Shown piece by piece: positions 15,164-22,111 of a DNA stretch of 64,000 nucleotides (positions are counted from its first letter, which is position 1; each line of letters begins with the position of its first letter). The stretch is from an uncultured Saprospiraceae bacterium (lineage in GTDB: Bacteria > Bacteroidota > Bacteroidia > Chitinophagales > Saprospiraceae): assembly GCA_938015435.1 (NCBI GenBank), contig CALLPN010000016.1, positions 62,001-126,000 of the forward strand, given 5' to 3'. The notes beneath the pieces are model-generated. The model had not been told where the DNA came from and searched no databases. It worked only from the letters and a program-made list of their open reading frames with translations. The position numbers and the translations under genes are program-made.

Positions 15164-15214
15164 CGGACCATGTTTTACGAAAAATCGTTTATATTTATAA
15201 TAAAGAATGCACTT

Positions 15215-15852
15215 ATGGCGATTGATTACTGGCACGAATTCCTTCCTGGGCATACGTACCATGCATATAACCATGCTGTGTCTGACCAAAATATATTTAA
15301 CTCAGATTTCGACTACACAGATTTCTTAATGAAGTACAAAAAATACATATCTCCATATGTCGATACTTATGCATATTGCTTAATGCCCAATCACTTCCAC
15401 TTACTATTCAAAGTAAAGGAATATGAAAGCCTCATTGCTAAAGCAAAATTAGATCCAACCAATGCTAGTATGAATCTAATGAAATCTGAAAATTATATAA
15501 TAAATTTATTCTGTCACAATGGAAAAGAATGCTAAGTTCTTATGCCATTGCTTATAACAATAGAAATAAAAGAAGAGGGCAATTATTTTTAAAAAGAATG
15601 AAACGCGTAAGTGTCAGCGAAGAGAATAGACTTTCTTATCTGGTTGCATATTTACATCACAATCCGATTCACCACGGTTTTTGCGACAAGTATAAGTCTT
15701 GGAAATACTCTTCTTATGGGGTATATCTAAAAGCAATTGGAAGTTCGAATATAGATCTAGAATACATCTTTGAATGGTTTGGAGGGCAGAAAAAATTGCT
15801 TGAATATCATGAGGACTTTAAAGTATTGAAAGCGAGTGATGAATTGGATTAG
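15215..15852 (+). CDS. REP-associated tyrosine transposase (RAYT, Y1_Tnp/IS200-like HUH), frame-interrupted: frame 1 to 15535, frame 2 to 15852
   Basis: YCLMPNHFHLLFKV (HUH) in ORF1; ILSQWKRMLSSYAIAYNNRNKRRGQLF and YLVAYLHHNPIHHGFCDKYKSWKYSSY in the -1 frame. The two parts rejoin around A_AAT_TTA at 15502-15508. Confidence 0.85.
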
Positions 15853-16165: not shown

Positions 16166-19100
16166 CTACCCTTTCTTTACTTCTATCGTGATCATATCGC
16201 CATCTAGAAGTTCTATTTCTTCTCCACCGTTTGACTCCATCGAAATACTATCTGCTAATACTTCTGCGGCTATGTAATCTGTATGTCCAGCCAATGCTAC
16301 TTTTACTAGATGATGATCACTGATCTTTACATTAATACGATCCGTTACTTCGAAGTCGCTATCCTTACGAAGATTTTGAATACGATTAACTAACTCTCTT
16401 GCGGCACCTTCTGCGATCAACGCATCATCTAATTGAATGTCTAATGCTACAGTTAACTCCTTATCAGAAGCTACTTGCCATCCTGGTACATCTTCTGCGA
16501 TGATCTCAAGATCTTCTAGATTGATTTCATATTTTACTTCACCTAGATCGACTAAAAAACTATTCGTCTTTTCGATCTCTGCTATAGTATCATTATCAAA
16601 TTCTTGGATGATTGCTGCGGCTGCTTTCATATCCTTACCCAACTTGCGTCCGAGTGTCTTGAAGTTCGCTTTAGCTTTCTTCTTGATGATACCTGAAGTA
16701 TCAGTGATATATTCGATATCCTTTACATTGACCTCAGCCAAAATCAAATCTTTCAATGCATCTACTTGATCTTGGAACTCTGGATTGAGCACAGGAAGTA
16801 AGATACGCTTGAGCGGCTGACGTACTCTTAGATTATCTTTTTTACGTAGAGATAATACTAATGAAGATATACGCTGCGCATAATCCATACGCTCCTCTAA
16901 TGCTTTGTCGATTGCACTCTCCACTGGCTGTGGAAAATCTACTAAATGCACAGAAGGATGAGACTCTAGATTAGAGACATCATTTAAATTTTTGTATAAC
17001 CAATCACTAAAATATGGTGATATTGGAGCCATCAATTTAGAGATGGTAGTTAGACACTCATACAATGTTTGGTAGGCTGCGATTTTGTCTTCGCTATACT
17101 CCCCTTTCCAAAATCTACGACGACATAATCTTACGTACCAGTTACTCAAATGATCATCAACGAATGACTGTATCTTACGAGCGGCTTGTGTCGGTTCGTA
17201 AGCTGCAAAATCTGCATCTACTTCTTTCTTTAACGTATTCAATAGAGATATGATCCATTTATCAATCTCCTGACGATCTGCTAATGGTATATAAGATTCA
17301 CTGTGGTTAAACTGATCGATGTTGGCATATAAGCTAAAGAACTTAAATGTCTGGAACATCGTAGCGAAAAACTTACGTCTTACTTCTTCGATTCCCGCTT
17401 CATCAAACTTAAGATTATCCCAAGGTGATGCATTACTGATCATATACCATCTAGTGGCATCTACTCCATGCTTATCTAATGTCTCAAATGGATCTACAGC
17501 ATTACCTAAACGCTTACTCATTTTCACACCATTCTTATCCAGTACGAGTCCATTAGAAACTACTGTCTTGTATGCTACATTGTCAAATACCATAGAGGCA
17601 ATCGCATGTAGTGTAAAGAACCAACCTCTTGTCTGATCGACCCCTTCAGCAATAAAATCTGCAGGGAATCTAGTGTCTAATAATTCTTTGTTTTCGAACG
17701 GGTAATGCATCTGTGCATAGGGCATCGATCCACTATCAAACCAAACATCTATCAAGTCAAGTTCACGCTTCATTTCTTGGCCATCATCAGATACTAAGAT
17801 CACCTCATCGATATATGGACGGTGAAGATCTTTAGGTACTTCTTGGCTTAGACCTAATGCTTTGTTAGCCTTATCTATTTCTGATTGCAGCTCAGCGATA
17901 GACCCTATTGAGATCTCGTCGCTGTTATCTGCAGTACGCCAGATCGGTAATGGTATACCCCAATATCTTGATCTTGAAAGATTCCAATCTTGGAGATTTT
18001 CTAACCAGTTTCCGAATCGCTTTTCTCCGGTATGAGCGGGCTTCCATTGGATCGTTTTATTGAGTTCGATCATACGATCTTTTACGGCTGTCGTACGGAT
18101 AAACCAACTATCGAGTGGGTAGTATAATATAGGCTTATCGGTCCTCCAGCAGTGCGGATAATTGTGACTATACTTCTGTACGTTGAATGCTCTATTTTGC
18201 TCCTTGAGCATGATCGAAATATCGACATCTACATTCTTATAAGCGTCGCCTTCGTCTTTGTAATCTTTGACATATCTGCCTGCAAAATCAGTAACTTCCT
18301 CAACGAATCTACCTTGCTTATCTACAAGAGTCAAAGACCCTATACCGTACTTCTTAGCAACAAACATATCATCAGCACCAAATGATGGCGCGATATGAAC
18401 GATACCTGTACCGTCAGATGTAGATACAAAATCACCACAGATTACTTTGAATGCATCCCCATCTTGTGGTTGTACATACGGTAGTAATTGCTCGTACTCT
18501 AGCATTTCAAAACTAGCCCCTTTGTACTCTCCTGTTACCTTATAGGGTATGAGTTTATCTTCTGGCTTAAAGGCTGCATAATCTGCTTCTAGTGCTGCTT
18601 CCTTAAACCACTTGCCTAATAGCTCTTTGGCAAGAATAAGATTCACTGGTAATTTGGTATAAGGATTATAGGTAGCGATACGTACGTAGTCTATCTTCTT
18701 ACCTACAGCTAGTGCTGTGTTAGATGGTAGCGTCCATGGCGTAGTCGTCCATGCTATGAAAAACACATCTCCTGCTTCATTGTCTTCGAATAGAAACTCT
18801 GATGCGGCATTCTTTTTCAACTTAAACTGAGCTACTGCAGAAGTGTCTTTTACATCTTTGTAGCATCCTGGCTGATTGAGCTCATGCGTACTCAGTCCTG
18901 TACCTGCCGCTGGTGAAAATGGCTGGACAGTATATCCTTTATACATATAGCCTTTCTTATGTAGCTGATCGAGCAGCCACCATACAGACTCTATATAATT
19001 GTTTTCGAAAGTGATGTAAGGATCATCGAGATCTACCCAATATCCCATTTTCACTGTAAGATCATCCCAAACGTCTTTGTAACGCATTACGGTTTCCTTA

Positions 19101-19462
19101 CACTTTAGGTTGTATTCGTCAACGGTGATCTTAGTACCGATGTCTTCTTTGGTGATCCCTAATTCTTTTTCGACAGATAACTCTACCGGTAATCCGTGAG
19201 TATCCCAACCGCCTTTACGCAGTACACGCTTACCTTTCATGGTGTTGAACCTACAGAAGATATCCTTTACAGTACGCGCCATTACGTGGTGGATACCTGG
19301 CATACCGTTAGCTGACGGAGGTCCTTCGTAAAATACGTAGGTATTATCCTCAGGCTTTTCGTCTATACTTCTCTGGAAGATATTCTCTGCGTCCCAAAAT
19401 GCTCTGATCTCCTTATCTATCTCAGGAAGGTTAAGTGACTTGTGGTCTTTGTATTGTGCCAT
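16166..19462 (-). CDS. ileS: Isoleucyl-tRNA synthetase
   Basis: YEGPPSANGMPGIHHVMARTVKDIFCRF (HIGH region), GWDTHGLPVE, KMSKRLGNAVDP. MAQYKDHK start (19462) preferred over 19492 because a TAnnTTTG -7 element overlaps 19490-19497. Confidence 0.97.
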   Translation of the reverse strand: MAQYKDHKSLNLPEIDKEIRAFWDAENIFQRSIDEKPEDNTYVFYEGPPSANGMPGIHHVMARTVKDIFCRFNTMKGKRVLRKGGWDTHGLPVELSVEKELGITKEDIGTKITVDEYNLKCKETVMRYKDVWDDLTVKMGYWVDLDDPYITFENNYIESVWWLLDQLHKKGYMYKGYTVQPFSPAAGTGLSTHELNQPGCYKDVKDTSAVAQFKLKKNAASEFLFEDNEAGDVFFIAWTTTPWTLPSNTALAVGKKIDYVRIATYNPYTKLPVNLILAKELLGKWFKEAALEADYAAFKPEDKLIPYKVTGEYKGASFEMLEYEQLLPYVQPQDGDAFKVICGDFVSTSDGTGIVHIAPSFGADDMFVAKKYGIGSLTLVDKQGRFVEEVTDFAGRYVKDYKDEGDAYKNVDVDISIMLKEQNRAFNVQKYSHNYPHCWRTDKPILYYPLDSWFIRTTAVKDRMIELNKTIQWKPAHTGEKRFGNWLENLQDWNLSRSRYWGIPLPIWRTADNSDEISIGSIAELQSEIDKANKALGLSQEVPKDLHRPYIDEVILVSDDGQEMKRELDLIDVWFDSGSMPYAQMHYPFENKELLDTRFPADFIAEGVDQTRGWFFTLHAIASMVFDNVAYKTVVSNGLVLDKNGVKMSKRLGNAVDPFETLDKHGVDATRWYMISNASPWDNLKFDEAGIEEVRRKFFATMFQTFKFFSLYANIDQFNHSESYIPLADRQEIDKWIISLLNTLKKEVDADFAAYEPTQAARKIQSFVDDHLSNWYVRLCRRRFWKGEYSEDKIAAYQTLYECLTTISKLMAPISPYFSDWLYKNLNDVSNLESHPSVHLVDFPQPVESAIDKALEERMDYAQRISSLVLSLRKKDNLRVRQPLKRILLPVLNPEFQDQVDALKDLILAEVNVKDIEYITDTSGIIKKKAKANFKTLGRKLGKDMKAAAAIIQEFDNDTIAEIEKTNSFLVDLGEVKYEINLEDLEIIAEDVPGWQVASDKELTVALDIQLDDALIAEGAARELVNRIQNLRKDSDFEVTDRINVKISDHHLVKVALAGHTDYIAAEVLADSISMESNGGEEIELLDGDMITIEVKKG

Positions 19463-19587
19463 ATTAGTATCTGTTGTCGAATAAGTGTGCAAAAATATAA
19501 AATCGTGGGTTGAATTATGCGAAATGTTGATTTGTCACAATTTTTGGTCAAAAATTTCGCCAAATCGAGTTCCTACATATCATCAAA

Positions 19588-19741: not shown

Positions 19742-19777
19742 AAAAAAAGCTCTGAAAGAATCATCCTTCAGAGCTTT
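19742..19777 (-). terminator. Strong intrinsic terminator upstream of ileS (candidate attenuator terminator)
   Basis: Minus strand AAAGCTCTGAA ggatgattct TTCAGAGCTTT followed by T's; perfect 11 bp stem. T run only on the minus side and no annotated minus-strand gene ends here. Confidence 0.85.
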
Positions 19778-19803
19778 AGTCAATACATAACAGATTAGCA
19801 TCT

Positions 19804-19866
19804 TCAGGATCGTGGATCGCGAATAATTATAATATTGCTAATAATGATGTTTGACATTGGTAACAT
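19804..19866 (-). CDS. Putative Ile-rich leader peptide MLPMSNIIISNIIIIRDPRS (alternative start ATG at 19857)
   Basis: Codons ATG TTA CCA ATG TCA AAC ATC ATT ATT AGC AAT ATT ATA ATT ATT CGC GAT CCA CGA TCC TGA; 7 Ile of 20; upstream of the terminator and ileS on the same strand. Confidence 0.6.
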   Translation of the reverse strand: MLPMSNIIISNIIIIRDPRS

Positions 19867-19870
19867 AGTG

Positions 19871-19878
19871 CAAAGATA
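19871..19878 (-). promoter_or_regulatory. Bacteroidota -7 promoter element for the ileS leader
   Basis: Plus strand CAAAGATA = minus TATCTTTG (TAnnTTTG). No clear -33 TTG at the ideal spacing. Confidence 0.45.
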
Positions 19879-19981: not shown

Positions 19982-22111
19982 ATGAAGAATGCGATCCTCA
20001 TATCATTACTCTTTTTAACCTTCAATGGTTTTGCTCAGATTACTTGTCCAGATAACATTACTATCAACTGTGACCAAGACTATACAGATACATTAGTTAT
20101 TGGGAGTCCTATTATTGCAGATTCTATAAATGTTAATGATATAAATGTGGATTTCAATATATTGCTTAACTCTTGTAGCGCAGGGACTATATCGGTGGCT
20201 TATAGCCTTGATAGCAATGTTATTTGTACTCAGATTCTTACTGTAGAAAATCCATTCAATGCGTTAGATTCCAATACAATAGTATTTCCAAAGGATACTA
20301 TGTATGTTACTTGTAATAGACCCTATGAAAATCCGACTTGGACTGCTGCAGATTGTGAATTTGTTAGATTTAGCGAGATGATAGATACAATATCTTTAGT
20401 CTCGGATTGGGAGTTTACTTTAGAACGAACTATTACTGTGATTGATTGGTGTTTGTACAATGAAACTGGTGGTGCTGAAGGTTTGTATTCAGGATCGCAC
20501 CTCATTTCAGTGCTAGATCAAACACCTCCACTTGCAGCTTGTTTCTCTATTTTCAATTTGTCTCCGAGCGAATTTCCGCGAACGTTCGAAGCAGAATACT
20601 TTAATTGGGCTTCTTATGATGCTTGCACATACTATACTGATTTACGTTTTACATTTTCTGATATTCCTCCAGAACAAGATCCAAATTTTGATGCTTCTAT
20701 AAATTCAAGTATTCGTGAAATCCATATCACGGAGTTCGAGGAAACTCAATTATATGTAGATGTATATTGTTGGGATCCAGCAGGAAACTATGGCTATTGT
20801 ACAGTCTATTTTGCTATCATTGCGGAACAGTGCTCCAACCAGGTGGATCATCCACTAGTTGATAATCGAAACCAATGGACTATTCGAGAAACTAGCGTAT
20901 CTAAACAAAGGTTTAAACCAGAGAGCGTCTACATTCAGGGTAGACAGTATAAACAGTTAGAAATAAGCCAAGTAAATGAAGAAGAGTGGAGCGACTCTGA
21001 ACTATCTATGAGTGAATGTGATGGTCAACTTTATGGTCGAAAAAACGGTATAACTACTCTTTACTTTGATTTCAATTTAGAGGTGGGTGATACCTTATTT
21101 AGCGATCAATATATTGGAGAGGTTGATTTAAAAATCGATGCTGTTAATGATGTGACTTACTACGATGGTTCTATTAGAAAAACAGTTACTGTAGAGGCTG
21201 TAAATGGATATGGTTTTTTTGACATGATCGAAGGCATAGGGTCAACCATATTTGCTCTTACTGAATTTGAAAATGTAGGACAAATTGGTTTTGATAAGGA
21301 AGTAATTTGTTTTACCGAAGATGAAGAGATTGTTTATACAGACTTGTCCCTTTTGTCATGTATTTCATCTAATCTCCTTTGTCCTCCTAACATTACAATT
21401 AATTGCGATCAAGATTACACGGATATGCAACTTACAGGAAGTCCAAATATTCTAGGATCCTCTAATGAAGACTCAATATCCGTAATTTACTTCACCCAAT
21501 TAAATGCTTGTGGCGTTGGCTATGTCTTAGCTAGACATAAGTATGTAGATAGTACTATATGTACACAGATTATCACTATTGAAAATCCATTTCCACTATT
21601 CGCTCCAAGTGAAATCATTTTTCCTAATGATACTATGTTTACAACTTGTGAATATCAATTAGATCCACCTGAGTGGATTGGAGGCCCTTGCGACTTTATT
21701 GGTTATACTGAAGAAATAGATACAGTATCTATGGTCTCTGAATGGGAGTTGACTCTCGAAAGATCAATCACCGTAATCGATTGGTGTTTATATGACTTGA
21801 CTGATGGAGAGGAAGGTTTATTTTTTCATACCCAGCTAATTAATATCAACTGCGAGTCAGTAAATGTAGATGATCAATTGGAAGATGATGTAGTAAGCAT
21901 ATACCCGAACCCTGGCAATTCATTTCTTAATCTTAAGACAACTCTAGATGCTAATTTATCTATCCATGCTTTGGACGGTAGTCAAATGCATAGAAAAAAT
22001 ATAACAGTTGGAACACTTGAAATCAATACTCAAGATTGGACTAAAGGAATATATCTTATTACTATATCTACCAAAGAAGGTAATATAACAAAGCGATGGG
22101 TGAAACTATAG
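19982..22111 (+). CDS. Secreted T9SS type A cargo protein with Cys-rich CDFIGYTE/VIDWC modules
   Basis: Signal peptide; two DYTD...IENPF...VIDWCLYD modules; C-terminal VSIYPNPGNSFLNL...GIYLITISTKEGNITKRWVKL. Confidence 0.88.
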   Translation: MKNAILISLLFLTFNGFAQITCPDNITINCDQDYTDTLVIGSPIIADSINVNDINVDFNILLNSCSAGTISVAYSLDSNVICTQILTVENPFNALDSNTIVFPKDTMYVTCNRPYENPTWTAADCEFVRFSEMIDTISLVSDWEFTLERTITVIDWCLYNETGGAEGLYSGSHLISVLDQTPPLAACFSIFNLSPSEFPRTFEAEYFNWASYDACTYYTDLRFTFSDIPPEQDPNFDASINSSIREIHITEFEETQLYVDVYCWDPAGNYGYCTVYFAIIAEQCSNQVDHPLVDNRNQWTIRETSVSKQRFKPESVYIQGRQYKQLEISQVNEEEWSDSELSMSECDGQLYGRKNGITTLYFDFNLEVGDTLFSDQYIGEVDLKIDAVNDVTYYDGSIRKTVTVEAVNGYGFFDMIEGIGSTIFALTEFENVGQIGFDKEVICFTEDEEIVYTDLSLLSCISSNLLCPPNITINCDQDYTDMQLTGSPNILGSSNEDSISVIYFTQLNACGVGYVLARHKYVDSTICTQIITIENPFPLFAPSEIIFPNDTMFTTCEYQLDPPEWIGGPCDFIGYTEEIDTVSMVSEWELTLERSITVIDWCLYDLTDGEEGLFFHTQLININCESVNVDDQLEDDVVSIYPNPGNSFLNLKTTLDANLSIHALDGSQMHRKNITVGTLEINTQDWTKGIYLITISTKEGNITKRWVKL

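Follow-up and report, generated by a model that had tools for sequence, protein, structure and literature searches.

The window, a stretch of 64,000 nt from the genome of an uncultured Saprospiraceae bacterium (G000 in the comparisons below), carries ileS, the gene encoding isoleucyl-tRNA synthetase, on its minus strand. Upstream of ileS lies a leader unit composed of a promoter element, a short open reading frame (ORF) with a block of isoleucine codons, and a hairpin followed by a T run (Table 1). An initial annotation of this DNA had read the unit as a leader-peptide attenuator. The promoter element and the seven Ile codons were present where it had placed them, and its perfect 11 bp hairpin with T run was confirmed, the stem reaching 14 bp when G-U pairs are counted. 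The segment TGCTAAT after the leader stop was correct in sequence and slightly misplaced, lying at 19800–19794 and not at 19799–19793. As it had also noted, the terminator ends no annotated gene: no minus-strand gene precedes it, and since the upstream gene (19982–22111) is divergent, the terminator does not belong to a neighbour.

Table 1. Features upstream of ileS in the window (P1 and P2, promoter elements; segments 1, 1′ and 2, strands of the alternative pairings).
Feature	Position	Strand	Details
P1, putative leader-transcript promoter	19871–19878	minus	TATCTTTG, Bacteroidota -7 type element (TAnnTTTG), from sequence
Leader peptide ORF	19804–19866	minus	MLPMSNIIISNIIIIRDPRS, then stop; ATG 19866, TGA 19806–19804
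Ile codon block, proposed stall site	19822–19848	minus	ATC ATT ATT AGC AAT ATT ATA ATT ATT, seven Ile
Segment 1	19836–19842	minus	ATTAGCA, partner segment 1′
Segment 2, antiterminator strand	19801–19810	minus	ATCCTGAAGA, spans leader stop codon; partner 19772–19763
Segment 1′	19794–19800	minus	TGCTAAT, partner segment 1
Terminator hairpin and T run	19742–19777	minus	hairpin 19777–19746; 5′ arm 19777–19764
P2, second promoter element near ileS	19490–19497	minus	TATTTTTG, downstream of terminator
ileS, isoleucyl-tRNA synthetase, proposed regulated gene	16166–19462	minus	ATG 19462

The leader ORF has an alternative start at ATG 19857 (peptide MSN...). If the first ATG is used, the mRNA would be nearly leaderless. 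The distance of 12 nt from the start of the promoter box to this ATG is also found in the congener G003 and in G009, and in G002 an upstream in-frame ATG likewise lies 12 nt from the start of the box. The unit is separated from ileS by 279 nt. The gap between terminator and P2 (19741–19498, minus strand) contains more inverted repeats, CTCAT..ATGAG and the hairpin CCCAAGGTAAAACCTTGGG, and has related sequence in G002. A repeat element in this gap was considered and rejected, as a 168-nt stretch of it is single-copy in the genome. Elsewhere in the window, at 15170–15852 on the plus strand, two adjoining ORFs resemble, by eye, one broken REP-associated (IS200-like) transposase.

The leader hairpin was the strongest of 12 terminator-like sites in the surrounding 20 kb, with a folding z-score of -5.7. 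The 125-nt unit as a whole folded with a z-score of -5.0, and none of 200 shuffles was as good. That Ile codons may arise by chance in AT-rich DNA had been raised as a caveat. However, when the leader region was shuffled 300 times with dinucleotides preserved, no shuffle gave an ORF reaching 7 Ile within 10 codons. The leaders before ileS in other genomes have 4–7 Ile in 10 codons, and a combined shuffle test was strongly significant, though the leaders are related to one another. One could nevertheless suppose that the unit serves mainly to insulate, by its terminator, and that an Ile-rich ORF arose simply from base composition, which would suit an AT-rich genome and a divergent neighbour gene. 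We consider this very unlikely, given how rarely shuffling reproduces the ORF and given that Ile codons are kept in GC-richer leaders (G009, 50% GC; G027, 45%; G004, 45%), with synonymous third-base changes across the leaders (83 ATT, 24 ATA, 14 ATC).

The size of ∼120 nt and the position of the unit would also suit a known structured RNA, namely 6S RNA (6S-Flavo), a T-box or a ribosomal protein leader, and S15-Flavobacteria gave a sub-threshold match, limited to the promoter and the AT-rich part. Against this, no Rfam family reached its gathering score over the leader unit. No T-box was found at the leader, and relaxing the Rfam thresholds did not bring one up either; 6S-Flavo had no match in G000 and none above the cut-off in 31 genomes. 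A known RNA of this kind is therefore the least probable of the explanations considered here, and we give it hardly any weight.

A comparison of the regions upstream of ileS, a check that the initial annotation had proposed, showed that the Ile-rich leader, the terminator and the promoter recur in many Saprospiraceae genera. At first inspection an Ile-rich leader ORF with a terminator was seen before ileS at about 22 Saprospiraceae loci. A covariance model of the unit (R1; match cut-off E ≤ 0.01) then matched 179 of 398 Saprospiraceae genomes and 72 of 114 genera, some of the weak matches being false. The next gene downstream was ileS, on the same strand, in 29 of the 30 best R1 loci; the exception, on a contig of 4.9 kb in G210, is truncated by a contig end, and the gene after it encodes a nucleotidyltransferase. 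Wherever ileS was located it was downstream on the same strand (60 of 60 loci). In the congener G003 the leader DNA shows 88% identity, and in G002 it is still recognisable; the gap between terminator and ileS differs. In many genera the plan recurs with other leader peptides, among them MYHNHHIIISIIIPGLIANR, MNRKSTIISIIIIGLPGNLR, MKSFRNIIINIIIRRC and MTVRIIIDGIIAGHAPCP, and a terminator follows in every case. Cultured strains that carry the leader include Flavilitoribacter nigricans DSM 23189 (L116) and Neolewinella aquimaris DSM 105137 (L120).

The unit is absent from the congener G001 and from many members of the family. Searches with R1 of 299 genomes of the order and 398 genomes of the phylum did not find the unit before ileS outside Saprospiraceae. 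All matches in the order belonged to this family, and in the phylum set four genomes from outside it matched, three with an Ile-rich leader before ilvE and one with an ATT repeat. Two R1 matches, L261 (an ATT repeat) and L263, were rejected as false, as were matches on the opposite strand that overlap a leader and represent the terminator read backwards. Within G000, no leaders were seen by eye before valS, leuS, metG, thrS, serS or other class II synthetase genes. On a tree of ileS the leader trait is scattered, and at least four changes are forced by well-supported branches. This distribution fits an old trait that would have been lost repeatedly; horizontal spread of the unit is the other possibility.

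Two alternative pairings accompany the terminator. In relatives, segment 1 within the Ile codons (TTAGCAT) pairs with the post-stop segment 1′ (TGCTAA). The initial annotation had predicted this pairing in the window, and it proved to be conserved, with a compensated variant in G036, where both strands have changed and still pair (TAACATTATT:GGTAATGTTA). It had also predicted that CTGAAGA at the leader stop competes for the 3′ arm of the terminator. What relatives show instead is a pairing of segment 2, which lies across the leader stop (typically AATCTG), with the 5′ arm (CAGATT). The 5′ arm is thus common to terminator and antiterminator, and the two structures are mutually exclusive, as an attenuator would demand. 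Pairs that covary across genomes are TCATCCG:TGGATGA, GTCCGT:ACGGAC and ACGATCTGT:ACAGATCGT. Segment 2 fits the terminator arm of its own genome better than those of other genomes, and the Ile codons fit their own post-stop segment; in neither case did any of 20,000 swap permutations reach the observed mean, with the reservation that swapping between genomes removes effects of relatedness only in part. In an alignment in which the window's own genus is misaligned at this helix, the eight-pair helix of segment 2 and the 5′ arm was paired in 74% of cells, compared with 30–44% when slid, and had 16 doubly changed cells, compared with 6.5 in shuffles. In the window the predicted antiterminator consists of AUCCU, a tandem G-A and AGA. 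It has a folding energy of -13.7 kcal/mol, against -19.5 kcal/mol for the terminator, and is weaker than the antiterminators of most relatives; segment 2 of the window, taken alone, ranks low in the swap test.

The antiterminator begins at a median distance of 15 nt from the last Ile codon, roughly at the edge of the RNA that a stalled ribosome would cover, and all but one of 21 leaders (20 of 21) have it overlapping the stop, so that a ribosome stalled at the Ile codons would leave it free and a ribosome at the stop would cover it. In constrained folding with the ribosome masked at the Ile codons, 8–13 antiterminator pairs formed in 19 of the 21 leaders, and in most leaders fewer formed with the ribosome at the stop; in some relatives the folding model formed the antiterminator also without a ribosome. 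For the window the numbers were 8 pairs with the ribosome stalled at Ile, 4 at the stop and none without a ribosome, which suggests that pairing of segments 1 and 1′ would sequester segment 2 when no ribosome stalls.

In 16 of the 22 loci the promoter motif TAnnTTTG lies no more than 50 nt before the leader ORF, where shuffling predicts 0.4. A second promoter-like element nearer ileS had been listed as a reservation about the attenuator reading, and it is both real and general: 18 of the 22 loci have the motif between terminator and ileS (1.0 expected). It also precedes ileS in 13 of 18 relatives without a leader there, a set that includes G006, G012 and G019, where a leader is present, or probably so, at a greater distance. 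P2 would permit transcription of ileS that bypasses the attenuator, which counts against the proposed control. Because P2-like elements past the terminator are frequent, the attenuator probably acts by boosting a basal supply.

This arrangement could also be taken for an independent gene for a small RNA or small peptide, complete from promoter to terminator, that acts in trans and lies beside ileS by chance. The unit from promoter through ORF to terminator is self-contained, ileS has its own P2 downstream, and the free RNA is predicted to be compactly folded. Yet the Ile codons suit the function of the next gene, and the stop-codon segment covaries with the terminator, a pairing for which a plain terminator has no need. 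Moreover, comparable leaders precede genes of Ile/Val biosynthesis: in G000, ilvD has an Ile/Val leader (MNTNFSIISIIIIVVIIQCTT, then stop) and a terminator directly upstream (L267, contig C1, about 384406–384251, minus strand), where TGAGAAG at the leader stop could pair with CTTCTCA of the terminator arm, and other families of Bacteroidota have an Ile-rich leader with terminator before ilvE (L257, L262, L260; one ilvE leader, from another family, contains IIISIVIISS). We therefore judge an independent gene to be unlikely, if somewhat less so than an insulating terminator. The ileS unit may derive from an ilv-type leader.

Taken together, the observed anatomy of the unit, its conservation and its covarying pairings comprise a leader ORF on the strand of ileS, cognate codons, a terminator, an antiterminator with covariation and a suitable geometry. 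We conclude, with a probability of roughly 0.88, that the unit is a ribosome-mediated transcription attenuator of ileS, in substance what the initial annotation had proposed. Leader and conditional stop most likely raise ileS expression when charged Ile-tRNA is low. The course of events that we infer from the sequence is as follows. RNA polymerase would start at P1, and a ribosome would follow along the leader ORF. With Ile-tRNA charged, the ribosome would reach the stop codon and cover segment 2, so that the terminator forms and a transcript of ∼120 nt is released. When charging is low, the ribosome would stall at the Ile codons and keep segment 1 off segment 1′; segment 2, left free, would pair with the emerging 5′ arm of the terminator, and polymerase would continue into ileS. 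P2, past the terminator, would supply basal ileS transcription, making the attenuator a booster and not the sole switch. Some of the readthrough in the window may be lost, because the terminator is 279 nt from ileS with the hairpin CCCAAGGTAAAACCTTGGG in between.

Leader-peptide attenuators are known from the ilv (ilvGMEDA-type), trp and his operons of E. coli. The ileS unit shares with these a leader with cognate codons, a terminator and an exclusive antiterminator that would be masked once the ribosome reaches the stop, but it would control a tRNA synthetase gene. The ileS leader draws on Ile codons alone; in the leader before ilvD in G000, Val codons occur besides those for Ile. For aminoacyl-tRNA synthetase genes, leader-peptide attenuation is known for pheST of gammaproteobacteria, and predictions exist for Streptomyces trpS and leuS (PMC1262725); these cases concern other amino acids and phyla, and the ileS unit differs in usually having a second promoter past the terminator. 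In several Actinobacteria ileS is under T-box control (PMC1262725), where, as proposed here, tRNA-Ile charging acts via the mRNA leader; a T-box binds the tRNA directly and needs no translated leader, unlike the leader ORF of the ileS unit. In the same phylum, a study on Flavobacterium psychrophilum suggests the same mechanism for amino-acid biosynthesis operons, and its passage on aminoacyl-tRNA synthetase mRNAs describes structured 5′ UTRs and names no ileS leader peptide (PMC9723704). We found no description of an ileS leader peptide in Bacteroidota in the open-access literature, where predictions in subscription papers could be missed; the initial annotation knew of none either. The principle is thus long known, and the target and the lineage appear to be new.

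In several genomes the unit occurs in extra copies. G378 has five copies in a row (L207, G378:C13), of which four precede genes for Uma2, Uma2, UPF0175/DUF3368 and VapBC and the last precedes ileS. Similar arrangements were found in G243 (L209, G243:C86) and G384 (L238, G384:C19). A copy lies with VapB in G388 (L211, G388:C172) and before an MNT nucleotidyltransferase gene in G210 (L216, G210:C29), and in G006 an Abi_C gene stands between leader and ileS (L212, G006:C58). The genes after the extra copies at these six loci, mostly adjoining ileS, also include DUF433/DUF5615 and TcmP/DUF5131. In 9 of 60 loci the gap before ileS is 400 nt or longer, and most of these gaps hold inserted genes that read in the same direction. 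One of the G378 copies has a frameshift and another has no stop codon, and some extra copies may therefore be decaying by-products of insertion. A more tentative reading, which we hold to be possible though doubtful, is that the unit serves as a portable isoleucine-starvation switch that was copied before toxin-antitoxin or defence-like genes beside ileS in several Saprospiraceae. The E. coli uORF toiL, which controls the topAI-yjhQ toxin-antitoxin operon, offers a comparable combination of leader ORF and toxin-antitoxin gene, but works by translation and Rho termination in antibiotic sensing, where an amino acid is proposed for the ileS-type leader (PMC12121999).

An attenuator before ileS would widen the range of leader-peptide attenuation by a synthetase gene and a whole family, in a phylum in which direct evidence is thin. 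With its promoter, codons and pairing geometry the ileS leader supplies a model that can be searched for and tested. If the extra copies do act as portable switches, VapBC, UPF0175/DUF3368, Uma2, DUF433/DUF5615, MNT, TcmP/DUF5131 and Abi_C would be switched on by low charged Ile-tRNA, for example in starvation or phage attack. The tandem copies pose the testable question whether accessory genes can borrow an amino-acid attenuator to sense stress.
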